The notes under the pieces were generated by a model. That model was not told the DNA's origin and did no database searches. It saw only the letters and a program-made list of their open reading frames with translations. Shown here one piece after another: positions 33,648-51,070 of a stretch of DNA of 64,000 nucleotides (the first letter of the stretch is position 1; each line of letters begins with the position of its first letter). The stretch is from Arenibacter arenosicollis (GTDB lineage Bacteria > Bacteroidota > Bacteroidia > Flavobacteriales > Flavobacteriaceae): assembly GCF_014397245.1 (NCBI RefSeq), contig NZ_JACLHY010000008.1, positions 1 through 64,000 on the forward strand, written 5' to 3'. The position numbers and the translations under genes are program-made.

Positions 33648-33690
33648 TAAAATTATAGGAAGTTAAAAACCTGAACTATGACATTTATCA
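33648..33690 (-). promoter_or_regulatory. Predicted FNR-type promoter of the universal stress gene
   Basis: Dyad TGACATTTATCA at 33679-33690 and, on the minus strand, -7 box TAATTTTA at 33648-33655. The centres are 33 bp apart, the same spacing as at the ccoI, ccoS, hemN and fnr promoters, and place the site near -40. Confidence 0.6.
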
Positions 33691-33877
33691 GCTTTTGTGG
33701 ATGGTATGGACTGGTTAATATTAAGCAAGTAAAACCTAGCTAAATAATGGCTTACTGCGGAATTACAACCTAAAAAAAGAAATAACAAAAACGAATAATG
33801 GCCCTTCTTAGAATATTTGAATGTTCTGGCTGAACGGAATACAATTATAGAAACAGTGGGAAATATGGTAAACTGGA

Positions 33878-34564
33878 TCAGGATCCCTTTGCAACATCAT
33901 TAAGACCCTGCCTATTGGCTATGGCCACTTTTTTTCCCGATGCCTTAATCAACCCCAATTTTTTGAATTCAGAAATAATACGGATTGCAGATTCTGTCGC
34001 TGTCCCAACTACATTGGCAATGTCTTCCCTTGATAATGTTAAGGCCAAATAGCCATTTTGATCCTCACCAAAATTTTCCTCCAAATAAATAAAAGCTTCG
34101 GCTACCCTTTGTTTAACTGTTTTTTGGGACATATTAACTATAACGTCATCTGCCTCCTTTAGATCGTGGGCTATATGTCTCAGAACTTCCACAGCAAAAT
34201 TGGGATTGCTATTTAAGGTATCTATAATAGCATCCTTAGGAATAAAACATACCTCCATATCATTTACCGCAATGGCACTTAAGTTGGCCACTTCTTCAGT
34301 AATTACGGAGCGCTGGCCCAAAACTGCGCCTTTTGTTGCCAGTTTTACTATTTGATCTTTGCCGTTGGGACTTAATTTGGACAACTTGGAAACCCCATCC
34401 CTCACACAATATACACCATTGAGCTTATCTCCTTCCCCAAAAATGATTTCTCCTTTTTTTAAAATTTTGGTAGTTTTAGTATCTGAAACCCTCTTCAACT
34501 CCTCCTTGTTCATTGCGCGTAAGGAATTGAATTGACGAATAATACAATTTTCACATCTGCCCAT
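33878..34564 (-). CDS. CRP/FNR family regulator
   Basis: A 228-residue regulator: cyclic-nucleotide-binding fold (about 25-140) and a winged helix (about 147-222). Its recognition helix carries TESAIR, with Glu191 and Arg195 at the positions that read TGA in FNR/CRP. Cys residues are at 4, 7, 53 and 106; the C4-x2-C7 pair and C106 resemble part of the FNR iron-sulfur ligand set, but the third N-terminal Cys is missing, so oxygen sensing is plausible, not shown. It is divergent from the copper ATPase gene and shares a dyad with it. Confidence 0.85.
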   Translation of the reverse strand: MGRCENCIIRQFNSLRAMNKEELKRVSDTKTTKILKKGEIIFGEGDKLNGVYCVRDGVSKLSKLSPNGKDQIVKLATKGAVLGQRSVITEEVANLSAIAVNDMEVCFIPKDAIIDTLNSNPNFAVEVLRHIAHDLKEADDVIVNMSQKTVKQRVAEAFIYLEENFGEDQNGYLALTLSREDIANVVGTATESAIRIISEFKKLGLIKASGKKVAIANRQGLNDVAKGS

Positions 34565-34586
34565 ATATTCATAATTACCTGATGGA

Positions 34587-34660
34587 CAAATTTAAAGGTT
34601 ATATCTTGGGGAAAAACTGACAATTGTCATGTTTTGGAATGGTAAACGTGACCATCTTTG
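34587..34660. promoter_or_regulatory. Shared FNR-type operator between fnr-like gene and ccoI
   Basis: The perfect 12-bp dyad TGACAATTGTCA lies at 34618-34629 in the 121-bp divergent gap. On the minus strand TAAATTTG (34587-34594, perfect -7 box) starts the regulator; on the plus strand CATCTTTG (34653-34660, one mismatch) starts ccoI. Both box centres are exactly 33 bp from the dyad centre, so one site can serve both promoters symmetrically at about -40. Confidence 0.68.
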
Positions 34661-34685
34661 CAACCGGGTATTAAGCAAATAATCT

Positions 34686-37067
34686 ATGGATAAAGCAACT
34701 TGCTATCATTGTGGTGACGATTGCGGGAGAACTCCCATAAATCATAATGATAAAACCTTCTGTTGTGTTGGTTGCAAAACTGTCTATGAGATTTTTGCCA
34801 ATAACGACTTATCCTATTATTATGACCTGCAGTCTGCAGCGGGCGCCTCACCTAAGGAAATTGAAGGTAAATACGACTTTCTGGAATCCAAAAACATTAT
34901 AGAAAAACTTATAGAGTTCAACGATAATGGCACCCAAATTATAAATCTATATATACCGCATATACATTGTAGTTCCTGTATTTGGATATTGGAAAACTTA
35001 AATAAACTAAATACCGGTATTAATAGTTCTCAGGTAGACTTTCCTAAAAAGACCGTAAGGGTCACCTATAATTCCGACAAGATTACCCTTAAGGATTTGG
35101 TGCTTCTAATGTCCAGAATTGGATATGAACCCTACATTTCCTTGGACGACTACGACAAAAAGAAAAAAGGCATAGACCGTAGTTTATCGTATAAATTGGG
35201 TATTGCCGGTTTCGCATTTGGAAATGTCATGTTTCTTTCCTTCCCTGAATATTTTGAGGTCGGGGAATATTGGTTGGAACAATTTAAAGGCGTTTTTAGA
35301 TGGCTAATGTTTGCCTTTTCCTTACCTGTGGTATTCTATGCCGCACAGGATTATTTTATTTCAGCCTATAAGGGTATAAGATCAAAATTTTTGAATATTG
35401 ATATCCCCATTGCGCTGGGAATTTTAGTTTTATTCCTTAGGAGTACCGTCGAAATTATTTTCGATTGGGGATCTGGCTTTTTTGATAGCCTAACAGGATT
35501 GGTATTCTTTTTACTTTTAGGCAAATTCTTTCAGCAAAAAACATATTCCTATCTTTCTTTTGAACGGGATTATAAATCGTATTTCCCCATTGCGGTGACT
35601 AGAATCACAAGTAAAAACACCGAGGAGAACACTCAGGTATATGACATTAAAGCCGGAGATAGGCTCCTTATAAGAAATGGGGAATTAATTCCTGTGGATG
35701 CAATTCTGATTAACGGCAATGCCAAGATCGATTACAGTTTTGTTACTGGGGAATCGGAACCTGTAGACAAAAAATCCGGAGATAAAGTTTATGCCGGTGG
35801 ACGACAACTGAGCAGCGCTATCGAAATTGAGACCTTAAAATCGGTTTCCCAAAGCTACCTTACCCAACTTTGGAGCAATGCCGTTTTTCAACAGGATAAA
35901 TCAGGAAGTTTTCAAACCTTGACCGATAGTATAGGTAAAAGATTTACGATTGCCGTCTTGACGATAGCCTTTGTCTCAGCATTTATATGGTTAATTATAG
36001 ACCCCGGCAAAACCGTAAACGTCTTTACCGCAGTACTCATTATTGCGTGCCCTTGCGCCATTGCCTTAGCCGCACCCTTTACCTTAGGCAATATGCTGCG
36101 AATTTTTGGACGGAATAGATTTTATTTAAGGGATACGCAGACTATTGAACAATTGGCACAGATCGATACCGCTATTTTCGACAAAACAGGCACTATTACT
36201 ACTGCTGAAAAGGGACATGTATACTATGAAGGACTGGAATTGACCAGCGAAGAAGAGTCCTTGTTAAAAAACACCTTACGATCGTCCAATCACCCATTGA
36301 GTAGAAAGCTATATGATATGTTGGCGGAACAAAACATTGTGCCCCTCGAGGAATATGAAGAATATTTGGGACAGGGGATTAAGGGTTCAACCATTACGGA
36401 TAGCGTTAAAGTTGGTTCGGCTGCCTTTGTCGGCAATACTCAAACAGACAATACCGAAAACACCTCGGTACACTTTAGCTCCAACGACCAATACAAGGGC
36501 TGTTTTATTTTTCAGAACCAATATCGGGATGGGGCCTCAGAAACCTTCCAAAGAATGTCCCAAGATCTGGAATTGGCAATACTATCAGGTGACAACGCTG
36601 GCGAAAAATCCAATCTTACCAAATTATTACCAGAAGGAACTCCTTTATATTTTAATCAAAAACCGGACAGCAAGCTCCAATTCATTAAGTCGCTCCAAGA
36701 TCAAAATAAAAAAGTAATGATGGTAGGTGATGGCCTAAACGATGCCGGAGCTTTAGCGCAAAGCAATGTAGGTATAGCCATATCAGAAAACGTAAATGTT
36801 TTTTCCCCCGCCTGTGACGGTATTCTGGATGCTAAAAATTTCAAATTTCTGTACCAATATATTTTAGCCTCAAGGAAAGCCATTAAAATTATAAAACTAA
36901 GTTTCGTCCTTTCTTTATTATACAATGTAGTGGGATTATATTTTGCGGTTACCGGTCAATTGGAGCCCGTTATTGCAGCCATTCTTATGCCGTTAAGCTC
37001 TATCAGTATTGTACTGTTCACGACAATTGCCACCAACAGATTGGGAAGCAAACTGGGAAGGGAATAA
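34686..37067 (+). CDS. ccoI: Copper-transporting P1B-ATPase CcoI/FixI
   Basis: A 793-residue heavy-metal P-type ATPase. The N-terminal cysteine-rich domain (CYHCGDDC...FCCVGCKTVYEIF) is typical of the ATPases for cbb3 oxidase assembly; it is followed by an HMA domain with HCSSCIW, TGES near 355, the membrane motif CPC within IIACPCAIALAAPF, the phosphorylated DKTGT, the SNHPLS nucleotide site and GDGLNDAGAL. It moves copper outward across the inner membrane for the oxidase. It stands 3 kb upstream of the cco operon, under a shared dyad with the FNR-type gene, and ends in a strong terminator. Confidence 0.93.
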   Translation: MDKATCYHCGDDCGRTPINHNDKTFCCVGCKTVYEIFANNDLSYYYDLQSAAGASPKEIEGKYDFLESKNIIEKLIEFNDNGTQIINLYIPHIHCSSCIWILENLNKLNTGINSSQVDFPKKTVRVTYNSDKITLKDLVLLMSRIGYEPYISLDDYDKKKKGIDRSLSYKLGIAGFAFGNVMFLSFPEYFEVGEYWLEQFKGVFRWLMFAFSLPVVFYAAQDYFISAYKGIRSKFLNIDIPIALGILVLFLRSTVEIIFDWGSGFFDSLTGLVFFLLLGKFFQQKTYSYLSFERDYKSYFPIAVTRITSKNTEENTQVYDIKAGDRLLIRNGELIPVDAILINGNAKIDYSFVTGESEPVDKKSGDKVYAGGRQLSSAIEIETLKSVSQSYLTQLWSNAVFQQDKSGSFQTLTDSIGKRFTIAVLTIAFVSAFIWLIIDPGKTVNVFTAVLIIACPCAIALAAPFTLGNMLRIFGRNRFYLRDTQTIEQLAQIDTAIFDKTGTITTAEKGHVYYEGLELTSEEESLLKNTLRSSNHPLSRKLYDMLAEQNIVPLEEYEEYLGQGIKGSTITDSVKVGSAAFVGNTQTDNTENTSVHFSSNDQYKGCFIFQNQYRDGASETFQRMSQDLELAILSGDNAGEKSNLTKLLPEGTPLYFNQKPDSKLQFIKSLQDQNKKVMMVGDGLNDAGALAQSNVGIAISENVNVFSPACDGILDAKNFKFLYQYILASRKAIKIIKLSFVLSLLYNVVGLYFAVTGQLEPVIAAILMPLSSISIVLFTTIATNRLGSKLGRE

Positions 37068-37123
37068 TCCAAAGTTGAACTGTGGCAGCTTGAACACACT
37101 TTGTGAACATACTTCAACAAATA

Positions 37124-37154
37124 AAAAGGCAACTGTTTAGAACAGTTGCCTTTT
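37124..37154. terminator. Bidirectional terminator between ccoI and the cytochrome lipoprotein gene
   Basis: A perfect 14-bp stem (37124-37137 with 37141-37154) and a TAG loop, with A4 at one foot and T4 at the other. It ends ccoI on the plus strand and the convergent lipoprotein gene on the minus strand. Confidence 0.9.
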
Positions 37155-37198
37155 ACTTATATACTATCTTAAATGGTTTATGAAGAAAGCTGCCTCTC

Positions 37199-39847
37199 TT
37201 ATTTCTGTTGCTCCAAATACGCTACCAACGAAGCCATTTCCTCATAACTAAGGGCATTTACCAACCCAGATGGCATCATAGAGGTTTCGAGTTCCTTTCT
37301 TTCAGCGATATTGGATTTCTTAAGTTGGGTTGCCGTACCTACAATATTTCTTATGGTAAGATCGGTAGCAGATTCCTGGGTTACAAACCCAACATAATTA
37401 TCGCCTTCTTTAGTCTGTATCTGCACCGTTGAAAACCCTTGGGAAATGGAAGCATTTGGTTTCAGAATAGATTCGGCGATATGCTCCCTGTTCATAATAG
37501 AACCTATTTGCCCCATAAACGGGCCTTTCATTACTTCACCTGAAGCTACACTATGACAAGTAAAACAAGCCTGCGTTTTAAAAATTTCCTTGCCTTTTTC
37601 CGGATCACCTTTTATTTTTTTCAGTGCAATCATAATATCTTCAATGGAAGCCTCACCAATTTGTCCTTTTTTATTTTTGATCTTTTCCAGGTCTATTGCA
37701 GGCATATCTTCCTTGGGAGCGGTTATTTCCACAGTTCCAAAATCATCAATCGCCAATCGGTACTTGCTGTTCAGTTCTGCATATAATTCCTTTTCTTCTT
37801 CAGAAGTTTTTTCCCATTCCCCTTTTAAAAAGGAGCGGATTACTGGCGTATAATCCCATTCTACCGTTTTATAGTATGGACCATGGGTATCCGGACGGGT
37901 ACTCCACCACCAAGAAGTATCGTAGGGCGCCTCTTTGTGATAAATACGCGCCAAGGTATTTATGATCTTATTCCTAAAAACGGAATCATCTGTTTTTTCA
38001 TAGGCCTTGATCAATCCATCCACAGCCTTAGGACTATGCATATATCGCATTGCCCACAACGCTAAATCCTTTTGTTCGGTATTTAAAGCGCTTACACATG
38101 CATCCACTGCGTCTAATTTCACCAAAGTCTTGACCGCCAAATGTGGAATAATGATTTCCGCATTAGGCTTTGCATGGGGTCCTTCCGTACCCATCCCAGG
38201 AGCTTGAAAGGAATTTGGAACCGGAATTTCCAATAAAGACTTGGCCACTTCCTTTTTCCCCAATCTTCCCAAACCAACAATTGCCGCCGCCTTTACTCGG
38301 TCAGAATCAGATTTCAATGCATTTAAGAATGGTTCTGTAGGCACATTATCAATGGAACCCATTCGGTCCGATAGGGCCCTTAGGGCAAATTCCTGGACTT
38401 GTGGGTCTTCTGTAAGGGACACCAAACGGTCTATTCCAGCCGCACTCGCTAATTGGGCAAAAGTGAATATTCCTGCAGCACGTACCTCCAATGGTAAAGT
38501 GCTATCTTCCACCAACTGCCATACTTTATCGGCCCCTTTACCTCTTTTAATTAATTCATATTGGGCACTTAGACGTGTCTTGGCATTATCTGCCTTTAAT
38601 AAATCTACCAAACTACCGGTCCAGAAAAAATCCTCCAAAATGGGGAATGGCTCGTAATTATAGTCTTCAGGTGTAACCCTGACCACATAGCCTTTATCAG
38701 GACTACCAGAATATCCTGCACCATCCCAAGCTGAAAGATACATAACTCCAGCACCGTCCACATCCACATCGGTTATTTGAGGCAACTGGATAAACTCCTC
38801 CTCATCCTGGATAAAACTAGCCTTATTTTCAGTAAGCCTATGGAAGTACAAGTAGCTTCTACCCCAATCAGCCATCATTGGAACATTATTATATTTTTCC
38901 GGCCAACGGTTGTCGTTCATATAAAGTGATCCGGTCCCCGAACCTCCACCTACATCTACCAATGCGGGAAGAATCTCTTCGGTAAAATGCTTAAAGAGAA
39001 CAGGGTATCCATATTCCCCGGATTGTATCTGATGGATGAATCTTATGTTCCATCCACCACCATCATTGGTATTGCCCCTAGTGTAGATATTCATGAACGG
39101 GTCAATGGCCACGTCGTAAATATTTCGTAATCCATGGGTATAAACTTCCATTTCTGTTCCATCCGGACGAACCCTAACAACTCCTCCGCCCAACATGGTC
39201 AATTGGGTTCCATCGCGATCTGTAGCATTATGGAAACCAAAATCACCTACGGCAATATATATCCACCCGTCTATTCCCATTTGAATACCGTTGGTGGCAT
39301 GATCCGTTCCTCTCTCCTGTAGATATTTGGAATTACTTAGGTTCTTTATTAAAACTTTGGCGGGGCCATCGGCCACCCCATCCTTATCCAAATCCTCAAA
39401 TACCACCAAATCCATATTAAAAGCTTTTCCCGTTTCTGGAGAAAAGGTAGTGTGCAACACAAAAACTTGATCACCTATGGCCAAAATACCTCGAGGGTTA
39501 TCTACCTGGGCAAATTCCGTGTGGGAATCCATAATGCCATCGTGGTTACAATCTACCAATCGCTTTATAAACCCTTTGTTTATTTCCTTGCCTAGGGAGC
39601 CCATCATATCTACCCCTACAAAGACCTCCCCTGTGGCAGCTACGGCCATACAGGCAGGACTTGGAGTTAGGTCAGGACCAGAGAATCCAGTTATTTTCAA
39701 ATCCTTTGGCCAATTTAAAACCTGAGCCAAAGAATCCGATGAGGGATAATTTATTGCCTCGGTACTTGGAGTACATGGGGCCTCCTCATGTTTACAACTT
39801 AAAACAATCAAACTTGAAAATAAAATTAAGCCTGCCTTTTTAAACAT
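37199..39847 (-). CDS. Lipoprotein with beta-propeller, HEAT repeats and cytochrome c domain
   Basis: An 882-residue lipoprotein (lipobox LSC, Cys near 18). A sorbosone-dehydrogenase-like six-bladed propeller covers about 45-400 (GLRNIYDVAIDPFMNIYTRGN), HEAT-like helical repeats about 440-680, and a C-terminal cytochrome c domain with CFTCH at 761-765 and a likely Met ligand in SMMPSGL. This is the PVC-type membrane-bound dehydrogenase/heme-binding architecture seen in Planctomycetes and Bacteroidota. Substrate unknown. It lies between ccoI and ccoS but on the other strand; no FNR-type dyad precedes it. Confidence 0.85.
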   Translation of the reverse strand: MFKKAGLILFSSLIVLSCKHEEAPCTPSTEAINYPSSDSLAQVLNWPKDLKITGFSGPDLTPSPACMAVAATGEVFVGVDMMGSLGKEINKGFIKRLVDCNHDGIMDSHTEFAQVDNPRGILAIGDQVFVLHTTFSPETGKAFNMDLVVFEDLDKDGVADGPAKVLIKNLSNSKYLQERGTDHATNGIQMGIDGWIYIAVGDFGFHNATDRDGTQLTMLGGGVVRVRPDGTEMEVYTHGLRNIYDVAIDPFMNIYTRGNTNDGGGWNIRFIHQIQSGEYGYPVLFKHFTEEILPALVDVGGGSGTGSLYMNDNRWPEKYNNVPMMADWGRSYLYFHRLTENKASFIQDEEEFIQLPQITDVDVDGAGVMYLSAWDGAGYSGSPDKGYVVRVTPEDYNYEPFPILEDFFWTGSLVDLLKADNAKTRLSAQYELIKRGKGADKVWQLVEDSTLPLEVRAAGIFTFAQLASAAGIDRLVSLTEDPQVQEFALRALSDRMGSIDNVPTEPFLNALKSDSDRVKAAAIVGLGRLGKKEVAKSLLEIPVPNSFQAPGMGTEGPHAKPNAEIIIPHLAVKTLVKLDAVDACVSALNTEQKDLALWAMRYMHSPKAVDGLIKAYEKTDDSVFRNKIINTLARIYHKEAPYDTSWWWSTRPDTHGPYYKTVEWDYTPVIRSFLKGEWEKTSEEEKELYAELNSKYRLAIDDFGTVEITAPKEDMPAIDLEKIKNKKGQIGEASIEDIMIALKKIKGDPEKGKEIFKTQACFTCHSVASGEVMKGPFMGQIGSIMNREHIAESILKPNASISQGFSTVQIQTKEGDNYVGFVTQESATDLTIRNIVGTATQLKKSNIAERKELETSMMPSGLVNALSYEEMASLVAYLEQQK

Positions 39848-40227
39848 ATTCTATGAAGTTAAAAATTTATTATTACGCTCTTGATTGAAAATTTTGGCCA
39901 AGGATTGCCGAATTTTCAACAGAGCTGGGCAAAACTAAAAATCTTTCACATAATTCCTTGTTTAAAATGAATTATTCGGGCATAAAACACAAAATTTTGG
40001 ATTAATCCCATTTTATTGGCTTCCTCACTAAAACAAACCTATTAATTATGATATCCCTTCTTAAACGAATCATGCGATGAAGTCACCACAAAAAGTTGAG
40101 GATTGAAGAAAGTGTAAAATAAATATGCTCTAGGAGAGAAGAACTTTCAATATTTTATCAAAACCTGACAAATGTCATATAATACCATATTCTCCATGTT
40201 TAGTTTTACGCCTTAATTCAGGTAGGT
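39848..40227. other. Intergenic region upstream of ccoS
   Basis: About 380 bp between divergent genes. The right end holds the FNR-type promoter of the cco operon (40166-40208). The rest is AT-rich without a reading frame, hairpin or repeat I can support, and no clear promoter for the leftward lipoprotein gene is visible. Confidence 0.5.
40166..40208 (+). promoter_or_regulatory. Predicted FNR-type promoter of the cco operon
   Basis: Dyad TGACAAATGTCA at 40166-40177 and -7 box TAGTTTTA at 40201-40208 (matches TAnnTTTG except the last base). The centres are 33 bp apart. The leader to the ccoS ATG is about 14 nt. Confidence 0.65.
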
Positions 40228-40434
40228 ATGAGTGTAATTTATTTATTGCTGTCATTGAGTATTGTTATAGCCGTCATATTTTTTGCGGCTTTTATTATTG
40301 CCACCAAGAATGGTCAATATGACGATTCCTATACCCCATCCGTTCGCATGCTTTTTGAAGATGAACTTGTAAAAAGTACTACTGCGCACACCGAAAAAAT
40401 ATCTAACCAAAAAAGTGAAAGTCAAAAATTGTAA
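40228..40434 (+). CDS. ccoS: cbb3 oxidase maturation protein CcoS
   Basis: A 68-residue protein with one N-terminal membrane helix (MSVIYLLLSLSIVIAVIFFAAFI) and a YDDSYTPSVRMLFED tail, as in CcoS, which is needed for heme and copper loading of the cbb3 oxidase. First gene of the operon, 2 bp before ccoNO. Confidence 0.9.
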   Translation: MSVIYLLLSLSIVIAVIFFAAFIIATKNGQYDDSYTPSVRMLFEDELVKSTTAHTEKISNQKSESQKL

Positions 40435-40436
40435 TT

Positions 40437-42638
40437 ATGGAAGTACAACAGTTTTATTACGATAACAAAATCGTAAAAAAATTCCTTTATGCAACTATGT
40501 TTTGGGGAATTGTAGGAATGTCGGTAGGTTTATTACTTGCCTTTATGTTTCTTTTTCCAAATTTAACCGATGGGATATCTTGGTTGAGTTTTGGCCGCTT
40601 AAGGCCTTTACACACCAACGCGGTTATTTTTGCCTTTGTGGGAAATGCCATTTTTGCCGGCGTTTATTATTCTACCCAGCGTTTGTTAAAGGCGAGAATG
40701 TTCAGCGATGCCCTAAGTAATTTTAATTTCTGGGGATGGCAAGCCATCATAGTAGCAGCGGCAATTACCCTGCCTTTGGGATACACCTCATCCAAAGAAT
40801 ATGCAGAGCTGGAATGGCCTATAGATTTAGCCATTGCGGTGGTCTGGGTGGCCTTTGGCTGGAACCTTATCGGGACAATGCTAAAAAGAAGACAGCGCCA
40901 TTTATACGTGGCTATTTGGTTTTATCTGGCGACATTTGTAACAGTAGCAGTACTTCATATCTTTAATAGTCTTGCCCTTCCCGTTAGTGCCTTCAAAAGT
41001 TATTCGGTATATGCAGGTGTACAGGATGCCTTGGTGCAATGGTGGTACGGTCACAATGCAGTAGCCTTCTTCCTCACAACACCTTTCTTAGGATTAATGT
41101 ACTACTTTGTGCCAAAAGCGGCCAATAGGCCTGTATACTCCTATAGATTATCCATAGTACATTTTTGGTCCCTGATATTTATTTATATCTGGGCCGGACC
41201 TCACCACTTATTATATTCCACTTTACCTGAATGGGCACAAAATTTAGGGGTTGCCTTTTCTATAATGCTGATCGCACCATCCTGGGGAGGTATGATCAAT
41301 GGACTACTGACTTTGCGTGGAGCTTGGGATAAGGTAAGAACAGACCCAGTTTTGAAGTTTATGGTGGTTGCCATTACAGGTTACGGTATGGCCACTTTTG
41401 AAGGCCCCATGCTTTCCCTTAAAAATGTAAATGCCATAGCGCATTTCAGCGATTGGATCATTGCACACGTTCACGTGGGAGCCTTGGCATGGAACGGATT
41501 CTTGACTTTCGGGATGATATACTGGTTGGTTCCAAAAATGTTCAAGACAAGGTTGCACTCACTTCCCATGGCCAATTTCCATTTCTGGATAGGTACTTTA
41601 GGAATAATACTTTATGCCCTTCCAATGTATGTTGCCGGCTTTACCCAAGCCCTAATGTGGAAAGAATTTAACCCAGACGGAACCTTGGCTTACGGTAACT
41701 TCTTGGAGACTGTAAATGAAATTATCCCCATGTACTGGATGCGCGCCATTGGAGGTACCATGTACATTATTGGAGCAATAGTAATGATTTACAACGTAGT
41801 TGTTACAATTAAGCAGGGTACCGATGTAGAGGATGAATTGGCCGAAGCTGCTGCCTTGACCAATGTATCCAAGAAAAGAACGGCCGGAGAGACCTTTCAC
41901 ACTTGGTTGGAGCGCAAGCCCATTCAATTGACCATTTTGGCTACCATTGCCATTTTGATCGGGGGAGTTATCCAGATTGTACCCACTATTCTGGTGAAAT
42001 CGAACATTCCAACAATTACAAGCGTTAAACCTTATACTCCCCTAGAATTGGAGGGGAGAGATCTTTATATCCGGGAGGGCTGTGTTGGCTGTCATTCCCA
42101 AATGGTAAGACCTTTCCGAAGTGAGGTAGAGCGCTATGGAGAGTACTCCAAAGCTGGAGAATATGTATATGACCATCCTTTCCTATGGGGAAGTAAGCGT
42201 ACTGGACCTGATCTATTAAGGGTTGGCGGGAAATATTCGGACAACTGGCACTTGAACCATATGTACGACCCACAAAGTACCTCTTCAGGCTCTATTATGC
42301 CCTCCTATTCATGGTTGGTACGCAATAGGCACGACAGGAGCAACATTCAGACCAAAATGGAGACCATGGTTACCCTTGGAGTTCCTTATTCCGAGGAGGA
42401 GATTGCATATGCCGAACAATCCATGGATAATCAGGCGACTAAAATTGAGAAAAATCTATACTCCGATCCCGATTTTGCAAAAGGGTATGAAGAGGACAAA
42501 AAATATGCCGCCGAAAACGGGGAAGAATTCATAGAAATGAAGGATAGGGAAATTGTAGCTATGATAGCCTATCTACAACGTTTGGGTACAGATATAAAAA
42601 TAAAGGAAACGGACGAAATAATTTCACAAAACAAATAA
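40437..42638 (+). CDS. ccoNO: cbb3-type cytochrome c oxidase, fused CcoN-CcoO
   Basis: A 733-residue fusion of subunits I and II. The CcoN part (to about 480) has twelve or so helices and its metal ligands: RPLHTNAV (heme b), WWYGHNAV, the copper HH at 256-257 (GPHHLLY) and IIAHVHVG near 343. The CcoO part has one anchor helix (about 500-520) and a heme c site C549-V-G-C-H553, with Met in SIMPSYSWL as axial ligand. Reduces oxygen with high affinity and pumps protons. The fusion is the normal arrangement in Bacteroidota. Confidence 0.95.
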   Translation: MEVQQFYYDNKIVKKFLYATMFWGIVGMSVGLLLAFMFLFPNLTDGISWLSFGRLRPLHTNAVIFAFVGNAIFAGVYYSTQRLLKARMFSDALSNFNFWGWQAIIVAAAITLPLGYTSSKEYAELEWPIDLAIAVVWVAFGWNLIGTMLKRRQRHLYVAIWFYLATFVTVAVLHIFNSLALPVSAFKSYSVYAGVQDALVQWWYGHNAVAFFLTTPFLGLMYYFVPKAANRPVYSYRLSIVHFWSLIFIYIWAGPHHLLYSTLPEWAQNLGVAFSIMLIAPSWGGMINGLLTLRGAWDKVRTDPVLKFMVVAITGYGMATFEGPMLSLKNVNAIAHFSDWIIAHVHVGALAWNGFLTFGMIYWLVPKMFKTRLHSLPMANFHFWIGTLGIILYALPMYVAGFTQALMWKEFNPDGTLAYGNFLETVNEIIPMYWMRAIGGTMYIIGAIVMIYNVVVTIKQGTDVEDELAEAAALTNVSKKRTAGETFHTWLERKPIQLTILATIAILIGGVIQIVPTILVKSNIPTITSVKPYTPLELEGRDLYIREGCVGCHSQMVRPFRSEVERYGEYSKAGEYVYDHPFLWGSKRTGPDLLRVGGKYSDNWHLNHMYDPQSTSSGSIMPSYSWLVRNRHDRSNIQTKMETMVTLGVPYSEEEIAYAEQSMDNQATKIEKNLYSDPDFAKGYEEDKKYAAENGEEFIEMKDREIVAMIAYLQRLGTDIKIKETDEIISQNK

Positions 42639-42641
42639 GTC

Positions 42642-42836
42642 ATGCTAAAATTTGTAAAAGGTTATATGGAAAGTATAGATGGCATAGCCACCTATCCCAT
42701 GATATCACTGCTAATCTTCTTTTTGTTTTTCACTATTCTTTTCTGGTGGGTATTTACTGCCTCTAAAGAACATATTAAGGAAGTAAGCGAAATACCATTA
42801 GAAACAGAAAACCAACCTAAAGAAGAATTATTATGA
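42642..42836 (+). CDS. ccoQ: CcoQ-like small subunit
   Basis: A 64-residue protein with one membrane helix (MISLLIFFLFFTILFWWVF) and an acidic tail, in the position of CcoQ between ccoNO and ccoP. It overlaps ccoP by 4 bp (ATGA). CcoQ stabilises the oxidase. Assigned mostly by position and size. Confidence 0.75.
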   Translation: MLKFVKGYMESIDGIATYPMISLLIFFLFFTILFWWVFTASKEHIKEVSEIPLETENQPKEELL

Positions 42837-43711
42837 AAAATATGTCACCTTGGTGGATAAGAGTCCCCGTAATCTTTTTCCTAATCTTCGGATTGATGGA
42901 GTATTTTATTGACTCCGGGGACAAACCAGCATTTATTGAATACCCTATCACCCTTCTATTTATGTTGATGGTGTTGTTCATATTGATAGGAATTGAATTG
43001 ATTCTTAAATCAGTGGAAAACGTAATGTTCCAAACATTATCCCCTGAAGCACAAAAGCGCTATTTAGAAACCAAATCGAAGCAATGGGAGTGGAAATGGG
43101 GTAAGGAATTCTGGGAAAAAATGACCGGAAACAAACCTATAGAGGAAGAAAAGGAAATTATCCTTGACCACAATTACGACGGTATCCGTGAATTGGACAA
43201 CAATCTTCCACCTTGGTGGGTGTATATGTTCTATGCCACCATAATTTTCGGTGTGGTTTACCTCGCACGTTTCCACGTATTTAATGATTACACACAGAAC
43301 ATGAAATATGAACAGGAAGTAGCTGAAGCCATGATTGCCATTGAAGAGTACAAAAAAACGGCCAAAGGCTTGGTTGACGCCAACTCCGTGGAACTTTTGA
43401 CTGAGGCTTCCGACATTAAGGCCGGGGCTACTATTTATAGCTCCAATTGTGTAGCCTGCCATATGCCGGATGGCGGTGGAGCTATAGGCCCGAATCTTAC
43501 GGACGAACATTGGATCTTGGGAGGCGGAATCAAAAACGTCTTCCATACCATTTCTGAAGGCGGTAGGGACGGTAAGGGAATGATAGCTTGGAAACAGACC
43601 CTCAAACCAGTCGAAATAGCACAAGTGGCCAGCTTTATTCTTAGTGAAATAAACGGCAAGGTCCCAGCCAATCCAAAGGCCGCTGAAGGAGAAATCTGGA
43701 CCTGGGAGTAA
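42833..43711 (+). CDS. ccoP: cbb3 oxidase subunit CcoP, single-heme form
   Basis: A 292-residue protein with N-terminal helices near 8-26 and 36-55, a further helix near 127-146 (PPWWVYMFYATIIFGVVYLARFHVF), and one cytochrome c domain with CVACH near 207-211 and GPNLTDEHW after it. CcoP of proteobacteria has two CxxCH motifs; only one is present here. It passes electrons from cytochrome c to CcoO. Third structural gene of the operon. Confidence 0.88.
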   Translation: MKNMSPWWIRVPVIFFLIFGLMEYFIDSGDKPAFIEYPITLLFMLMVLFILIGIELILKSVENVMFQTLSPEAQKRYLETKSKQWEWKWGKEFWEKMTGNKPIEEEKEIILDHNYDGIRELDNNLPPWWVYMFYATIIFGVVYLARFHVFNDYTQNMKYEQEVAEAMIAIEEYKKTAKGLVDANSVELLTEASDIKAGATIYSSNCVACHMPDGGGAIGPNLTDEHWILGGGIKNVFHTISEGGRDGKGMIAWKQTLKPVEIAQVASFILSEINGKVPANPKAAEGEIWTWE

Positions 43712-43779
43712 ATTCCTAATATACCTTATTGAACACATTTTAACGCATACCCAAAATTCCAAAAAAGCATTACATATAA

Positions 43780-45198
43780 ATGGCACAGGACCAGGACAAT
43801 TTTAGGGATTCCATAGGAACTATAAATGAGGATGGCAAAAGGGCTTGGATATTCCCCAAGAAACCCAGTGGAAAGTTTTATGAATATCGCAAATATGTAA
43901 GTTATGTTCTATTGGCCTTCCTTTTTCTGGCACCCTTTATAAAAATAAATGGCAATCAGTTCTTAATGTTCAATGTTCTCGAAAGGCGTTTCAACATATT
44001 TGGATTTCCATTTTGGCCACAGGATTTTCATCTATTTGTAATTTCGATGATAATCGGGGTAATTTTCATAGCCCTCTTTACCGTTGCTTTTGGTCGAATT
44101 TTTTGCGGTTGGATGTGCCCCCAAACCATCTTCATGGAAATGGTTTTTAGGAGGATAGAATTTTGGATCGATGGCGACCGTGGTGCTCAAATACGTCTTA
44201 GCAAACAACCATGGAATGCTGAAAAAATCAGAAAACGAGGCCTTAAATTAATTGTTTTCTTCATTATTTCCTTTTTGATCGCCAATGTTTTTTTGGCTTA
44301 TTTAATAGGAAGTGACCGCTTAATGCAATATATCACGGATGGACCCTTACAACATGTAAGCACCCTAGTATCACTTTTAATCTTTACTGCGGTATTCTAT
44401 TTTGTATTTGCCTGGTTCAGGGAACAAGTATGTATCATAGCTTGCCCTTATGGAAGGATGCAAGGCGTATTACTCGACAATAAATCTATTGTTGTGGCCT
44501 ACGACCATAAACGTGGAGAAGCGGAAAATGGTCGAAAAAAGTTTAGAAAAGGAGAGGATAGAAATGCGCTTGGAAATGGCGACTGTATTGATTGTTTCCA
44601 ATGCGTAAACGTATGCCCGACCGGTATAGACATAAGAAATGGGACTCAGTTGGAATGCGTCAATTGTACAGCTTGTATAGATGAATGTGATACCATAATG
44701 GAAAAGGTAAACCTTCCTAAAGGACTTATACGTTATGCCAGTGAAGACAACATTGAGAAAAAGTCCAAGTTTACATTTACCCCTAGACTTAAAGGGTACA
44801 CGGCAGTACTCGTTATTCTAACTGGGATATTGATCGGCATGTTGTTTTTGAGAAATGAAGTAGAAGCCAATATCTTAAGACTGCCTGGACAACTATACGA
44901 GCACAAGGAAGGCAATATAATTAGCAATGTTTACACTTATAAGTTAGTAAATAAAACCACCGAGGACATTACGGATGTGAGTTTTAAACTGTTGTCGCAC
45001 AAAGGGACCATCAATCTAGTTAGGCATGAACATTTTATAGTACCTGCACAAGAAAGGGCCGAAGGAACCTTATTTGTAGAAATAAATAATTCGGCTTTGG
45101 AAGGTGACAAGAACAAATTAAGGATTGGAGTATATAGTGGGGAAGAATTAATTGAAACGGCCACCGCCAGATTTTTAGCCCCTAGAAGCTATAAATAA
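43780..45198 (+). CDS. ccoG: cbb3 oxidase accessory ferredoxin-like protein CcoG
   Basis: A 472-residue membrane protein. It carries a CGWMCPQTIFMEM motif, CIIACPYGRMQG, and a double 4Fe-4S ferredoxin segment (CIDCFQCVNVCPTG near 265-278 and CVNCTACIDECD near 287-298), with helices at about 40-60, 90-110, 155-180, 195-215 and 345-365. The C-terminal domain is an immunoglobulin-like fold. CcoG/RdxA helps reduce copper for oxidase assembly. It is 68 bp after ccoP. Confidence 0.92.
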   Translation: MAQDQDNFRDSIGTINEDGKRAWIFPKKPSGKFYEYRKYVSYVLLAFLFLAPFIKINGNQFLMFNVLERRFNIFGFPFWPQDFHLFVISMIIGVIFIALFTVAFGRIFCGWMCPQTIFMEMVFRRIEFWIDGDRGAQIRLSKQPWNAEKIRKRGLKLIVFFIISFLIANVFLAYLIGSDRLMQYITDGPLQHVSTLVSLLIFTAVFYFVFAWFREQVCIIACPYGRMQGVLLDNKSIVVAYDHKRGEAENGRKKFRKGEDRNALGNGDCIDCFQCVNVCPTGIDIRNGTQLECVNCTACIDECDTIMEKVNLPKGLIRYASEDNIEKKSKFTFTPRLKGYTAVLVILTGILIGMLFLRNEVEANILRLPGQLYEHKEGNIISNVYTYKLVNKTTEDITDVSFKLLSHKGTINLVRHEHFIVPAQERAEGTLFVEINNSALEGDKNKLRIGVYSGEELIETATARFLAPRSYK

Positions 45199-45278
45199 AT
45201 TAAACACTGGGCAGAAGTCAAAAAAGATTAAAAACCAATTGGATTTCCCTTTGGAAAACACAACTAAAAGAATAAGCT

Positions 45279-45737
45279 ATGAAAATTAATTGGGGAACCG
45301 GAATTGTGCTAGCCTTCATCGGATTTATAAGTTTTATCCTATTTTTTGTAGTCCGCATGAGCATGGACCACAAAGCCAATCATGATCTGGTAACCGAGAA
45401 TTATTACAGAGCGGAATTGGGCTATCAGAATGAAATTGATGCCGAAAACAATGCCCATGCCAAAGAAGTTGACCTTAAATTGGAAACAACGGATAAGGGT
45501 TTAAAATTAGTATTCCCAAAAAACTTGGATATAGAAAATATTAAAGGTACAGTGTCCCTTTACAGGCCATCTAACAAGCACTTGGATTTTGACTTACCTG
45601 TAAGTTTATCCAAAGACTATTTGCTCATACCTGACAATCGTTTGTTGGATGGTCGCTGGGACATTAAAGTATTCTGGGAATACCAAGGCGAGGTTTACTT
45701 GTTCAAGAAAAAAATAACCTATCACAATAATAAATAA
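45279..45737 (+). CDS. ccoH: FixH family protein (CcoH)
   Basis: A 152-residue protein with one N-terminal membrane helix (about 7-27) and a periplasmic beta domain that reads as a FixH fold (LVTENYYRAELGYQNEI, SLYRPSNKHLDFDLP). It helps CcoI and oxidase assembly. It lies 80 bp after ccoG and 23 bp before the SafE-family gene. Confidence 0.85.
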   Translation: MKINWGTGIVLAFIGFISFILFFVVRMSMDHKANHDLVTENYYRAELGYQNEIDAENNAHAKEVDLKLETTDKGLKLVFPKNLDIENIKGTVSLYRPSNKHLDFDLPVSLSKDYLLIPDNRLLDGRWDIKVFWEYQGEVYLFKKKITYHNNK

Positions 45738-45760
45738 ACACAAAAGTACCACACAAAACT

Positions 45761-46462
45761 ATGTTGTTATCTGCCTTAATCATGGGACTAATGGGAAGCT
45801 TTCACTGCATTGGAATGTGCGGTCCTATTGCCTTCATGTTGCCGGTAGATCATAATAAACCCGCCAAAAAATTAATGCAGGTTTTTCTTTACCATTTGGG
45901 AAGGCTTACTTCCTACAGTATTCTTGGTCTAATTTTTGGATTTTTGGGCAAAGGACTTTATGTATTTGGAATGCAACAAAGGCTTTCCATCATTATTGGG
46001 GTCCTGATGATTACAGTAATACTTATTCCCTATAAAACTTTTAACAAGTACAATTTCTCCAAACCTATATATTCCCTATTGTCCAAAGTAAAAAGCCGAC
46101 TTGGAAAAGAATTACAGAAAAAAAGTCCAGATACATTTTTAACCATTGGCCTCCTTAATGGACTACTTCCCTGTGGGTTAGTTTATATAGCCCTCTTTGG
46201 TAGTATCGCCACGGCCAGCCCATGGCTTGGAGCGCTATTCATGGTCTTATTTGGAGTGGGAACCATCCCCTTGATGACCTCTGCTGTTTACTTTGGCAGT
46301 ATGCTAAAAGGCAGCGCCAAAAAATCGGTTCAGCGATTGATTCCCGTTTTCGTGGTCCTAATAGGGCTATTGTTTATATTAAGGGGAATGGGACTTGGAA
46401 TCCCCTATATTTCACCGGAACCTGTTTTGGAGGTAGTTACCAGTACTCTGGATTGCCACTAA
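45761..46462 (+). CDS. Sulfite exporter TauE/SafE family protein, cco-linked
   Basis: A 233-residue membrane protein with six helices, opening MGLMGSFHCIGMCGPIAF and carrying a second LNGLLPCGLVYIA block near 127-139. This short two-Cys type is found in cco/fix operons as a likely copper or heme-delivery factor (SenC/CcoS-linked), not as a sulfite exporter. Last gene of the operon. Confidence 0.85.
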   Translation: MLLSALIMGLMGSFHCIGMCGPIAFMLPVDHNKPAKKLMQVFLYHLGRLTSYSILGLIFGFLGKGLYVFGMQQRLSIIIGVLMITVILIPYKTFNKYNFSKPIYSLLSKVKSRLGKELQKKSPDTFLTIGLLNGLLPCGLVYIALFGSIATASPWLGALFMVLFGVGTIPLMTSAVYFGSMLKGSAKKSVQRLIPVFVVLIGLLFILRGMGLGIPYISPEPVLEVVTSTLDCH

Positions 46463-46604
46463 AAGCCCCTTCCCACCCGTAAATCAGATTTGTAGTACTT
46501 GTAAAAATAGTGTAATTTTCTAGTGCACTGGAATCCCCTGTTCTTAAACATTTGGGATTGAACTGGACAATGGCCAGGTGCAACCGGACCTTAAACAACG
46601 ACCA

Positions 46605-47474: not shown

Positions 47475-47502
47475 TATAGAATGTAGTTTTATGCGTGTTT
47501 AA

Positions 47503-48570
47503 CTAGTCCAGTATCTTTTTGGCATTTTCGTTATACACCTTTTTCAAAACTTCATCACTAAGTCCCAAACCGTTAAAGGACCAATGATAGGATGAAATAT
47601 TCTTATCGTAAAAATGCTCATCCTCGGTTTCCAAAATGCGAAATGTTAATTCGTACATTTCTGGGTCAGTGCCCATATCCGTACCATATACCAACTTGTC
47701 CTGATACTTTTCATAAAAGCGTTTTGTATATCGGGGAACAGCGGCCGTTTCTGCAAATCTTGCCGATATATCGGCATACATATTGTCATATTTACCCAAT
47801 AGCCTTCCAAGAATTTCCAAATCATGGCTACAATTAGCAAAATGGCAAGCTATAAAAGTGGTCTTTGGATTTTCCTTAACAGCATTTTCTAGAGTAGTAA
47901 TTAATTGCCCATGGGTCAACAACCCCTCCTTTTGAGTATCTATGCGCCATTTGTAAGCGTTCATCAGACCATCATTATGAGCGTCCATGGGTTGGTACAT
48001 CCACATTGGATCAGCAACATGTATGCTCACCGGCATACCCAATTCCCCACATTTTTCCCAAAGGGGCTTCATCCTTGGATCATCTGCATGCATTCCAATT
48101 GCCGGTGTGGGTTTGGAGTAAAAAAAGCCAAGGCCTTTATCGCCCAATTCACCAACTCCCTTAGCTCCCATTTTATAGCATCTTTCCAATTCCTTCACAG
48201 CCCGTTTACTCCAGCCTTTCTCGTTGTAACCAGTAAAATCGAAACCACACCAAAGTTCAAAACGGTCTCCATATTTGGAATAAAGGTTCACAATACTATC
48301 AAAGGACTTCCCGGTTTGATAGGTAAGTATAATGGATTTTGCAACGCCAAATTTGTCCATTGTCTTTACCCATTCCCTTATTTCCTGTTCCGACTTAGGG
48401 TTGGGGTGCGAATGAAAATCTACCACCGGAAATTTAGCTTTGGCTATTTTGGTCTTGGGAATATTGTAAATGGATACAGGATCGTAATCCTTTAATAAAA
48501 TATCTTCCTGCGCTCTAACAGTATTGGAAATAAAAACAACCGAAAAAAAAATGATGGCATAAACTTTCAT
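47503..48570 (-). CDS. Exported amidohydrolase (amidohydrolase_2 family)
   Basis: A 355-residue protein with a signal sequence (MKVYAIIFFSVVFISNTVRAQ). The TIM-barrel hydrolase shows VVDFHSHPNP near 48-57 (H-x-H-type metal site), SIHVADP near 180, ACHFANCSHDLE near 239 and YGTDMGTDP near 295. Family members include decarboxylases and lactonases; substrate unknown. A TATATTTG box (minus, 48618-48625) precedes it with a 40-nt leader. Confidence 0.85.
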   Translation of the reverse strand: MKVYAIIFFSVVFISNTVRAQEDILLKDYDPVSIYNIPKTKIAKAKFPVVDFHSHPNPKSEQEIREWVKTMDKFGVAKSIILTYQTGKSFDSIVNLYSKYGDRFELWCGFDFTGYNEKGWSKRAVKELERCYKMGAKGVGELGDKGLGFFYSKPTPAIGMHADDPRMKPLWEKCGELGMPVSIHVADPMWMYQPMDAHNDGLMNAYKWRIDTQKEGLLTHGQLITTLENAVKENPKTTFIACHFANCSHDLEILGRLLGKYDNMYADISARFAETAAVPRYTKRFYEKYQDKLVYGTDMGTDPEMYELTFRILETEDEHFYDKNISSYHWSFNGLGLSDEVLKKVYNENAKKILD

Positions 48571-48734
48571 ATCGAGGATTTTTTGGAATAAGTTGATACT
48601 AACAAACCCATGTCCCTCAAATATAACGATTTAAGCCATACTTCGTACCACTAATTTAACACAACAGGAATAAAAACCAAAGTAATTAAATTGGGTTTAA
48701 AGTTTCATTAACCCTGATACTTTTTCTGAAGTCA

Positions 48735-49556
48735 TTAAATTTTAAAAGTGATAACAGGTATTTTGGAATGATTGGTCACATCCTCCCCTATACTACCCAT
48801 AAGAAAATGGGAAAGTCCTTTTCTGCCATGTGTGGGCAAACCAATTAAATCGGCATTTCTACCTTCACTAAAGCTAAGTATTCCCCTTTCTACGGTATAG
48901 TCATTATATATCTCGACCTCCAAACTCGCTTTCGCCAAATGTAGAAACTTATTAATTTTCTTAAAGGCATCTTTTGTGCTCAAGAAATTATCTCCCGGTG
49001 TATTAATATTTACCAAAATCAATTCTGCAGCAAGCTTATCTGCCAATTTTTTTGCCCTGTGAAAGGCTTCTAGGTTTTCCTCCTCAAAATCACAGGCAAA
49101 CACAAATCTCTTCACCTCGAAACCCTCAATATAATCCTTGATTACCAAGACCGGAATATTGGAATTTCTTACCATTTTTTCGGCATTGGAACCCACAAAA
49201 ATTTCCTTGATCCCATCTGTCCCTTGAGAACCCATTACAATTAGATCGGCACCGTGCTTTTCTGCAATGGCATTCACTTCGCTATACACCTTATGATGTT
49301 TAACAATAGGCGTAGTTTTGATGCCCTTTAAGTATGGTTTATCCAAAAATGTTTCGAACCTTTTTTCTGCCAATTTTATTAAAAAAACAGCTTGCTCGTA
49401 ATGTGCCTGCTCATTGGATGAAACAAGAGCTTCCGACAATTCCAGCATATGCAGGACGAAAATCTCAGAGCCATATTTTGTGGCGATGGAAGCTGCCGTT
49501 TTTAGAGCATTTTCGGATTGTTCTGAAAAATCTACGGGTACTATAATTTTTTTCAT
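48735..49556 (-). CDS. Universal stress protein, tandem domains
   Basis: A 273-residue protein with two complete USP domains. Both ATP loops are present: MGSQGTDGIKEIFVGSN near 107-123 and LPTHGRKGLSHFLMGS near 240-255. Paralogue of the gene at 32697-33599. No dyad with the 33-bp spacing is found upstream, unlike that gene. It lies downstream of hemN with an 84-bp gap. Confidence 0.9.
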   Translation of the reverse strand: MKKIIVPVDFSEQSENALKTAASIATKYGSEIFVLHMLELSEALVSSNEQAHYEQAVFLIKLAEKRFETFLDKPYLKGIKTTPIVKHHKVYSEVNAIAEKHGADLIVMGSQGTDGIKEIFVGSNAEKMVRNSNIPVLVIKDYIEGFEVKRFVFACDFEEENLEAFHRAKKLADKLAAELILVNINTPGDNFLSTKDAFKKINKFLHLAKASLEVEIYNDYTVERGILSFSEGRNADLIGLPTHGRKGLSHFLMGSIGEDVTNHSKIPVITFKI

Positions 49557-49640
49557 CTGTTTATGTTTATTAATAATTTTAAACTACGAATTAAATATTG
49601 AGCCCGATCATTAGGTCACCAAAACAGGCCTTTGAATCAA

Positions 49641-51002
49641 CTAGATCGTCATTGAAAACAATCTTGTATCCGGCGCTTTACGATGTAGGAACAGATCGAA
49701 CGCCATACATACATTTCGCACAAAGGGCCTTCCCTTTTCAGTAACATAAATGCTGTCTGAAGCTATTTCCACCAACCCATCCAAAGCCATTTCACTTAGC
49801 TTATCCTTTACGGCACCCAACTCTCTGAAAACTTCATGTTGATTTTCCCAACTAGTCTTAAATCTACACATTAAATTTAAGATATGCTTGCGAATAATCT
49901 TGTCTTCCTTAGTTAAAATGTGTCCTCTGTAAATGGGAATAATATTATTTTCAACAAGGTGGCTGTACTCTTCCAAGTTTTTTACATTTTGGGTAAAACT
50001 ACCCCAACTATCACTAATACTGGAAACTCCCAAACCAATCATTACACGTGTTTTAGAAGCAGTATAGCCCATAAAATTTCTATGCAACGTCCCATTCTCC
50101 ATGGCTTTATACAGCGAATCCGTTTTTAGTGAAAAATGATCCATTCCTATTTCGGAATAACCAACCTCACCCAACAAGGCCTTTCCCATTTCATACTGCT
50201 CCCGTTTTATTTCTGCCGTTGGCAGGTCCGAATCTTTATAGCCTCTTTGTCCATTTCCCTTTAACCAAGGAACATGTGCATAACTATAAAATGCCAAACG
50301 GTCCGGCATTAACTCCTTGGTCTTCAAAATTGTTTGGGTAACATCGTCTTTGGACTGGAAGGGCAAACCAAAAATAATATCATGTCCTACCGAAGTATAC
50401 CCAATTTCTCTGGCCCATTCGGTAACATTTTTCACATTGGCAAAAGGTTGCAACCTATGAATGGCAAGCTGAACCTTTTTATTATAATCCTGAACCCCAT
50501 AACTCACTCTTCTAAAACCTACATTGTAAAGGGCCTGTAGATGTTCTTTGGTGGTGTTGTTTGGATGTCCCTCAAAACTAAACTCATAATTCTTCGCATG
50601 GGTAGCAGACTTAAAAATACTATTTATGAGTCGGGTCAAATTTTCAGGGGAGAAAAATGTTGGAGTCCCCCCGCCCAAATGAAGTTCCTTTATTCTTGGT
50701 TTTGTATCAAACAAATCGCAATAAAGCTTCCACTCCTTTAAGACATTACTTATATATGGATCTTCAACTTCATGTCTTTTGGTTATTCTTTTATGGCAGC
50801 CGCAAAATGTACAAAGACTTTCACAGAACGGTAGATGAATATATAGGCTTATTCCTTCGTCCTCATTACTTACATTAAAGCTACCGATCAATGTGGATTT
50901 CCATTGCTGGCCCGAAAAAGAATCCAAATCCCAATAGGGAACAGTAGGGTAACTAGTATAACGGGGACCGGGAATATTATATTTTTGAACCAAATTGGAC
51001 AT
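49641..51002 (-). CDS. hemN: Oxygen-independent coproporphyrinogen III dehydrogenase
   Basis: A 453-residue radical SAM enzyme. The motif CESLCTFCGCHKR (C-x3-C-x2-C-x-C) near residues 59-67 is the four-Cys form typical of true HemN, and GPRYTSYPTVPYW at the N-terminus is family-specific. It converts coproporphyrinogen III to protoporphyrinogen IX without oxygen, which suits growth at low oxygen. The promoter (51028-51070) carries the FNR-type dyad. Confidence 0.95.
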   Translation of the reverse strand: MSNLVQKYNIPGPRYTSYPTVPYWDLDSFSGQQWKSTLIGSFNVSNEDEGISLYIHLPFCESLCTFCGCHKRITKRHEVEDPYISNVLKEWKLYCDLFDTKPRIKELHLGGGTPTFFSPENLTRLINSIFKSATHAKNYEFSFEGHPNNTTKEHLQALYNVGFRRVSYGVQDYNKKVQLAIHRLQPFANVKNVTEWAREIGYTSVGHDIIFGLPFQSKDDVTQTILKTKELMPDRLAFYSYAHVPWLKGNGQRGYKDSDLPTAEIKREQYEMGKALLGEVGYSEIGMDHFSLKTDSLYKAMENGTLHRNFMGYTASKTRVMIGLGVSSISDSWGSFTQNVKNLEEYSHLVENNIIPIYRGHILTKEDKIIRKHILNLMCRFKTSWENQHEVFRELGAVKDKLSEMALDGLVEIASDSIYVTEKGRPFVRNVCMAFDLFLHRKAPDTRLFSMTI

Positions 51003-51027
51003 AAGCAGTTTTTGTATAAGATTGCAA

Positions 51028-51070
51028 CAAAAATACCATGATGGGGCTTATTAAAATATGACACTTATCA
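51028..51070 (-). promoter_or_regulatory. Predicted FNR-type promoter of hemN
   Basis: Dyad TGACACTTATCA at 51059-51070; on the minus strand TATTTTTG (perfect -7 box) at 51028-51035. Centres 33 bp apart; leader about 20 nt. Confidence 0.65.

Follow-up and report, generated by a model that had tools for sequence, protein, structure and literature searches.

The targets of the Escherichia coli FNR and Pseudomonas Anr regulators include cbb3 oxidases and universal stress proteins (Usp), and these regulators use class II sites at −41.5, with the FNR site reading TTGAT-N4-ATCAA. The cbb3 oxidase is also among the targets of the FixLJ-FixK2 system of rhizobia, and in Mycobacterium the dormancy regulon of DosR, a NarL-type regulator, brings many Usp and other low-oxygen survival genes under one repeated operator. 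Here we describe a dyad that recurs at a fixed distance from a −7-like promoter box in Arenibacter arenosicollis, in the first 64,000 nucleotides of contig NZ_JACLHY010000008.1 (assembly GCF_014397245.1; this whole stretch is referred to as the window). On the strength of the sites themselves, their fixed spacing, their conservation, their co-occurrence with a regulator gene, and the helix similarity and domain make-up of the candidate regulators, we consider it quite probable that they are class II Crp/Fnr operators which would be bound in common by an FNR-type protein and by fusions of a receiver domain to a Crp-type protein (REC-Crp), and from which genes for low-oxygen life would be switched on.

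Five promoters of the window share a dyad at a fixed distance from the −7 box

The window contains four such dyads, at positions 33679 to 33690 (TGATAAATGTCA, minus strand), 34618 to 34629 (TGACAATTGTCA, a perfect palindrome), 40166 to 40177 (TGACAAATGTCA, plus strand), and 51059 to 51070 (TGATAAGTGTCA, minus strand). The first serves a Usp gene (32697 to 33599, minus strand; Pfam Usp, 2e-21) through the box TAATTTTA at 33648 to 33655 on the minus strand. The palindrome is common to two divergent genes, that of the FNR-type regulator (33878 to 34564, minus strand; box TAAATTTG, 34587 to 34594, minus strand) and that of a heavy-metal P-type ATPase (34686 to 37067, plus strand; box CATCTTTG, 34653 to 34660, plus strand), the latter being judged of the ccoI type from its place and domains. 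The third dyad, with box TAGTTTTA (40201 to 40208, plus strand), precedes the cco operon, and the fourth, with box TATTTTTG (51028 to 51035, minus strand), precedes hemN, the gene for oxygen-independent coproporphyrinogen III oxidase (49641 to 51002, minus strand; TIGR00538, 431.6 bits, cut-off 324.95). An earlier note on this DNA had placed the four dyads and five boxes at these positions, with two divergent promoters equidistant from the middle dyad, and all were found there. In each case 23 nt separate dyad and box, equivalent to 33 bp from center to center. The pattern TANNTTTR is matched in full by four of the five boxes, that of ccoI having C for the first T.

The dyad-plus-box pair is far beyond chance

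With up to one mismatch allowed, the window contained 11 matches to the dyad alone, whereas shuffles averaged 6.27 and reached that count in 10 of 100, and the 5.4-Mb genome held 30 oriented exact matches against 15 for the reversed control. The pair behaved differently. The earlier note had named equal frequency in random intergenic DNA as what would count against it; the window holds four copies of dyad TGAYANNTRTCA plus box, against a maximum of 0 in 300 Markov-1 simulations, and four of the wider core TGAYNNNNRTCA plus box, against a mean of 0.017 and a maximum of 1. Both patterns were derived from the window itself, and the independent tests are those made outside it. Across the genome, an exact dyad occurs at 24 places (the window's four included), giving 48 orientations; a full box follows at gap 23 in 9 of these, and at each of the other gaps from 0 to 79 in 0 or 1. 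For the core TGAYNNNNRTCA, the hit-bearing regions of the genome (298 kb picked for holding matches, window included) contain 27 full boxes at gap 23, with no other gap from 0 to 59 exceeding 1; control DNA, taken as eight 20-kb stretches (160 kb), contains none. A generic sigma-70 promoter scan found nothing above shuffles (46 found, mean 52.1).

The pair at a 23-nt gap is thus far beyond chance, and the preference for this gap, which the earlier note had proposed to look for genome-wide, is strong in the A. arenosicollis genome and in its relatives alike. That AT-rich palindromes merely happen to lie beside AT-rich promoter boxes, as a chance or compositional artefact, would fit the commonness of the dyad by itself; given the exactness of the gap preference, the reversed-pattern controls, and the conservation across genera, we give this explanation next to no credence.

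Consensus and promoter geometry

To describe the site we took 45 sites from 47 cco and hemN loci, with no more than two per genus and with core and box being full matches by choice. Their consensus is (C/A)TGAY-N4-RTCAT, a T-run, 17 nt, and TAnnTTTR. The base preceding TGA is C in 34 sites, A in 10, and T in 1, that following TCA is T in all 45, and the T-run has T in 42, 41, 32, and 36 of the 45 at positions 14 to 17, counting the first dyad base as 0. FNR half-sites of the form TTGAT-N4-ATCAA were not matched by these 45 sites, in which the base before TGA is mostly C. In the upstream regions of the 47 loci, a full box was found at gap 23 in 45 and elsewhere in 1. The narrow dyad TGACANNTRTCA was dropped as the full motif because TGAYNNNNRTCA shows an equal gap preference with more sites. 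The TGACAnnTRTCA-type dyad of the earlier note stands as a real shared site at fixed spacing, but the motif is broader than described, and its five promoters account for only a small share of the sites in the genome.

Abutting the dyad, the T-run would serve as a −33-like element. In Flavobacterium psychrophilum the TAnnTTTG box occupies −12 to −5, according to the accessible part of the report (PMC9723704). If that box position applies, the box center is at −8.5, and the dyad center would therefore fall at −41.5, the class II activator position, relative to a predicted start. This would agree with the location near −40 given in the earlier note.

Conservation at ccoI, fnr, cco, and hemN

The window regulator is 98% identical to its A. 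hampyeongensis counterpart. In a set of 80 named relatives (the best 80 of 540, regulator 76 to 98% identical), 73 have a core-matching dyad ahead of the fnr-type gene. Of these 73, 70 show nAnnTTTR at gap 23 toward ccoI, and 53 a full box toward the fnr-type gene. Counting all gaps over the 80 loci, there are 210 boxes at gap 23 and 14 at the next most frequent gap.

The ccoI box has a peculiarity of its own: in the 70 relatives AnnTTTR is kept and the first base is C in 58, G in 8, A in 4, and never T, an exception being a locus of a more distant set (L228, TATATTTG). The lack of the first T suggests a weak core promoter that would depend on an activator.

At hemN, 30 genomes were used, of which 2 had no hemN match and 14 of those bearing a regulator ortholog had been picked from the best matches. 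Dyad and full box at gap 23 were present in 27 of 28 loci, that is, in 14/14 with a regulator ortholog and 13/14 without. The one miss (G108) reads TTACTTTG, and in another genome (G195) the site is 362 nt upstream. For cco, 20 genomes lacking the ortholog were used, 1 of them without full CcoNO, and dyad plus full box preceded the operon in 18 of the other 19. The ortholog-lacking genomes of both sets were picked from 51, mostly for having motif matches. Conservation across genera thus holds for the ccoI, cco, and hemN sites. Together with the Usp site, they lie in front of genes that fit low-oxygen life, as the earlier note had proposed.

Spread in the family and the phylum

In 199 genomes of the family, TGAYNNNNRTCA-N23-TANNTTTG had 1,416 matches against 29 for the reversed control, with at least one match in 173 genomes. 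The matches follow the regulator: the 117 genomes with an ortholog (E < 1e-50) account for 1,064 of them, with a median of 7 and no genome without a match; the 51 with a weaker regulator match account for 337 (3 genomes without any); and the 31 with no regulator match account for 15 (23 without any). CcoNO is likewise unmatched at E ≤ 1e-50 in 30 of these 31, the remaining genome having a weak match (33% identity). This association of regulator and site is a co-occurrence and not a proof.

A phylum-wide set of 296 genomes gave, in sums made by hand from the table, 281 matches against 5 for the control in 30 genomes of the family, 24 against 0 in 6 others of the order, and 112 against 7 in 37 others of the class; the remaining 223 genomes, which were not summed, mostly had 0 or 1. 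One genome of another family (G459, locus L340) has 28 matches, far above the other non-family genomes listed, and encodes a cysteine-shifted FNR-type protein.

Further sites in the A. arenosicollis genome

Many of the composite matches with at most two mismatches crowd on contig C2 at about 75 to 132 kb, and smaller groups occur on C1 (465 to 476 kb) and C28. The 75- to 124-kb part of C2, a Usp-rich segment of about 50 kb, has 15 of the 27 full-box matches at gap 23, distributed over 14 places. Genes behind these sites encode, among others, a patatin, a cation ATPase, and a run of universal stress proteins (named from protein starts rather than by Pfam); behind another site, a PEP-utilising dikinase gene comes second. 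A phosphotransacetylase-acetate kinase pair (pta-ackA) faces one dyad, its box being degenerate (GATCTTCG, 2 mismatches), and for an M50-CBS protease the match is a near one (TATCTTCG, 1 mismatch); Hsp20 and phosphorylase genes are close by, with no site tied to either. The stretch also contains two pairs of PAS histidine kinase and REC-Crp genes, with a site ahead of the first pair. As a whole, C2:75000-132000 (loci L087 to L090) resembles a low-oxygen survival island dense in this promoter type.

The FNR-type regulator

The protein encoded at 33878 to 34564 consists of cNMP_binding (66.9 bits, cut-off 27.5) and HTH_Crp_2 (53.4 bits, cut-off 27) domains by Pfam and has cysteines at residues 4, 7, 53, and 106. 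It scored 106.1 bits with the NCBIfam Fnr model PRK11161, under the cut-off of 228. Aligned to the FNR-type structure 9qlt of the PDB, its C4, C7, and C106 fall on cysteines, N13 is opposite the third N-terminal cysteine, and C53 is opposite Ala. The classical FNR signature, CX2CX5C plus a distal Cys, is therefore absent, with N13 at the third position; this Asn is found in 109/109 close sequences and in 35/40 of a more distant set, the rest having S or G. The four cysteines, in contrast, are all present in 109/109 close sequences, in 39/39 more distant orthologs of the family, and in 23 of 27 further sequences, which are the best phylum matches (one, L338, is from the same family).

Cys53 was found in none of 31 other Crp-type proteins (36 loci were put in and 32 rows obtained, one being the window's own protein). 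Of the 65 rows that contain CxxC, 61 combine Cys53 with the absence of a third N-terminal Cys, 2 show the reverse (L338 and E. coli FNR), and 2 have both (L217 and L333). Because of this near-reciprocal pattern, we infer that C53 replaces the missing ligand. The window protein is thus not a classical FNR by cysteine signature, NCBIfam cut-off, or half-site, but it has four conserved cysteines that would be able to hold a cluster, and a role as an Fe-S oxygen sensor whose cysteine set is shifted is probable, both cluster and sensing being predicted. An AlphaFold2 model from 44 sequences (mean predicted local distance difference test score, 63.9; predicted template modeling score, 0.45) was too poor to place Cys53 relative to the other three.

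A second, near-classical FNR-like type exists in the family (L276 of G108 and L338 of G283), in which CX2CX4C and the Cys at the 106 place are present and Cys53 is missing; L276 is a paralog with Phe at 53. Among solved structures the best sequence match of the window protein is PDB 2gau of the Crp/Fnr family, which we take to be PgRsp of Porphyromonas gingivalis. That alignment covers the query from residue 18 onward, with Tyr and Leu opposite Cys53 and Cys106. The recognition helix of the window protein is TATESAIR, with Ile where FNR has the Ser before the helix Arg that is a contact residue.

Candidate readers of the operator

The earlier note had taken the 33878 to 34564 protein as the one regulator, a claim that the comparison did not support as stated: the sites at cco and hemN are kept in genomes lacking its ortholog, and a second class of protein has a nearly identical recognition helix. 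In the A. arenosicollis genome, which has four HTH_Crp_2 matches above the Pfam cut-off, the window protein has two other matches, both REC-Crp fusions (C2:93426-94493 and C2:114610-115662; REC, cNMP_binding, and HTH_Crp_2 by Pfam), adjoined by PAS kinases. All 13 ortholog-lacking genomes examined encode a protein of about 350 residues with a similar helix; as judged by length, sequence start, and text pattern, the means by which REC-Crp proteins of other genomes were identified, 12 of the 13 fit the receiver-domain pattern and the last starts alike. The helix reads [TIM][AS][TS]E[TS]xIR in 17/17 REC-Crp-type sequences. Most of the 14 other paralogs have a different helix, TAKESLVR and TTEEQVIR coming closest. 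Because the ortholog-lacking genomes keep the sites and carry REC-Crp proteins with a near-identical helix, the operator is probably shared by both kinds of protein. In some genomes there may be a third kind of reader.

Two other assignments have to be weighed here. In favor of the FNR-type protein as sole controller, with the REC-Crp proteins reading other sites, are the place of its gene, adjoining ccoI under a common palindrome, and the presence of at least one site in all 117 ortholog-bearing genomes; the near-identity of the REC-Crp helices and the persistence of sites where the ortholog is missing, in genomes picked mostly for having matches, make this assignment unlikely. Conversely, the REC-Crp proteins could be the main readers, with the FNR-type protein a modulator of ccoI and itself only. 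Persistence without the ortholog also accords with this, as does the location of both A. arenosicollis REC-Crp genes within the C2 stretch with its 15 composite matches and a site before the first pair. We nevertheless regard it as quite improbable in view of the dyad kept beside the fnr-type gene in most of the named relatives and the median of 7 matches in ortholog-bearing genomes.

Other genes of the window

The cco operon is headed by a small open reading frame of 68 residues (40228 to 40434), a putative CcoS by its position, followed by a fused ccoNO (40437 to 42638; NCBIfam PRK14485, 1355.1 bits, cut-off 1080), ccoP (42833 to 43711; FixP_N and Cytochrome_CBB3), ccoG (43780 to 45198; Fer4_18 and FixG_C), ccoH (45279 to 45737; FixH), and a DsbD_2 family membrane protein gene (45761 to 46462), which closes the cluster; all are on the plus strand. 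Directly downstream of hemN, on the same (minus) strand, is a second Usp gene (48735 to 49556), which may have its promoter in common with hemN.

Discussion

In the mechanism that we propose, a Crp/Fnr-type dimer would occupy (C/A)TGAY-N4-RTCAT, 33 bp upstream of the −7 box center (−41.5) and directly against the T-rich −33-like element, and would recruit the main flavobacterial RNA polymerase. One operator would have two readers, the FNR-type regulator and the REC-Crp response regulators, whose partners are PAS histidine kinases. At low oxygen, the cbb3 oxidase with its copper pump, oxygen-independent heme synthesis, universal stress proteins, and other survival genes would be switched on. 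In line with this, the accessible part of a study of F. psychrophilum under oxygen limitation reports the cbb3 oxidase as strongly up and heme biosynthesis enzymes as up (PMC9723704).

A more specific proposal, whose chances we put at about even, is that of a Bacteroidota FNR with an Fe-S cluster on C4, C7, C53, and C106 (CX2C-X45-C-X52-C) alongside a phosphorylation-gated REC-Crp arm on the same −41.5 operator. A single promoter set would then integrate an oxygen and a kinase signal, and in some genera the REC-Crp arm would have replaced the FNR arm.

Several observations weigh against an operator shared by the FNR-type and REC-Crp proteins and devoted to low-oxygen genes. The dyad alone is weak evidence, being about twofold enriched, and when up to two mismatches are allowed the composite occurs at 99 places in the A. 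arenosicollis genome (10 with no mismatch, 26 with one) against 46 for the reversed control. As to the 80 named relatives, these are close and not independent; in one genus (g128), moreover, the ccoI box is at gap 24 instead of 23 in 4 of 17 loci. The earlier note had counted the fnr-type gene among those controlled, and in the window its dyad and box are indeed present; general autoregulation was dropped as a rule, the fnr-side box being absent in 20 of the 73 relatives. One genome (G040, cco locus L250) has CcoNO with no site within 1 kb upstream, and another (G147, 73% complete) has 7 composite matches with no regulator match detected. The 31 regulator-less genomes are mostly small, and only 16 of them reach 90% completeness with contamination of 5% or less; the joint absence of sites and cbb3 may therefore reflect reduction or gaps. 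Finally, Crp or FNR is not mentioned in the main text, as far as accessible, of the F. psychrophilum study (PMC9723704).

A literature search that covered titles and the beginnings of abstracts, with most subscription papers outside its reach, and is thus not proof of absence, returned no described site of this kind nor a cysteine-shifted Bacteroidota FNR. A different proposal, in the portion available of PMC8510549, puts Crp/Fnr homologs of Flavobacteriales and Saprospiraceae in a MalR-like, carbon-sensing group.

These results provide an exact operator-plus-promoter rule by which genomes of a major marine and soil family can be searched for probable low-oxygen control. Two questions also become accessible to direct test: whether one cluster ligand has shifted to residue 53 in an FNR that occurs outside the family as well, and whether a single operator receives both two-component and redox signals through related DNA-binding domains.

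Among known systems, the DosR regulon is alike in placing many Usp and low-oxygen survival genes under one repeated operator, and differs in regulator type, site, and phylum. PgRsp is likewise a Crp/Fnr regulator of the Bacteroidota, but it binds heme, according to the accessible part of the report (PMC6955866). FixLJ-FixK2, in what is available of PMC9104804 and PMC6710368, similarly combines a two-component system with a Crp/Fnr regulator for microoxic life; there, FixLJ induces fixK2 from above, whereas here the receiver domain is fused to a Crp-type DNA-binding domain that probably uses the same operator. With the FNR/ANR regulons of E. coli and Pseudomonas the present system has in common the Crp fold, the N-terminal CxxC, a Cys aligned to the distal FNR Cys, an N4-spaced dyad with TGA/TCA halves, a predicted class II position, and hemN as a target, as also recorded for Anr in the accessible part of PMC6588701. 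The A. arenosicollis protein differs from these in having no third-position N-terminal Cys and an extra conserved Cys53, and the site differs in its (C/A)TGAY rather than TTGAT half, in the use of the Bacteroidota −7 box TAnnTTTG, and in an operator that is apparently common to REC-Crp proteins. Overall, the system would work like an FNR/ANR class II regulon, with a non-classical FNR protein and a non-classical half-site.

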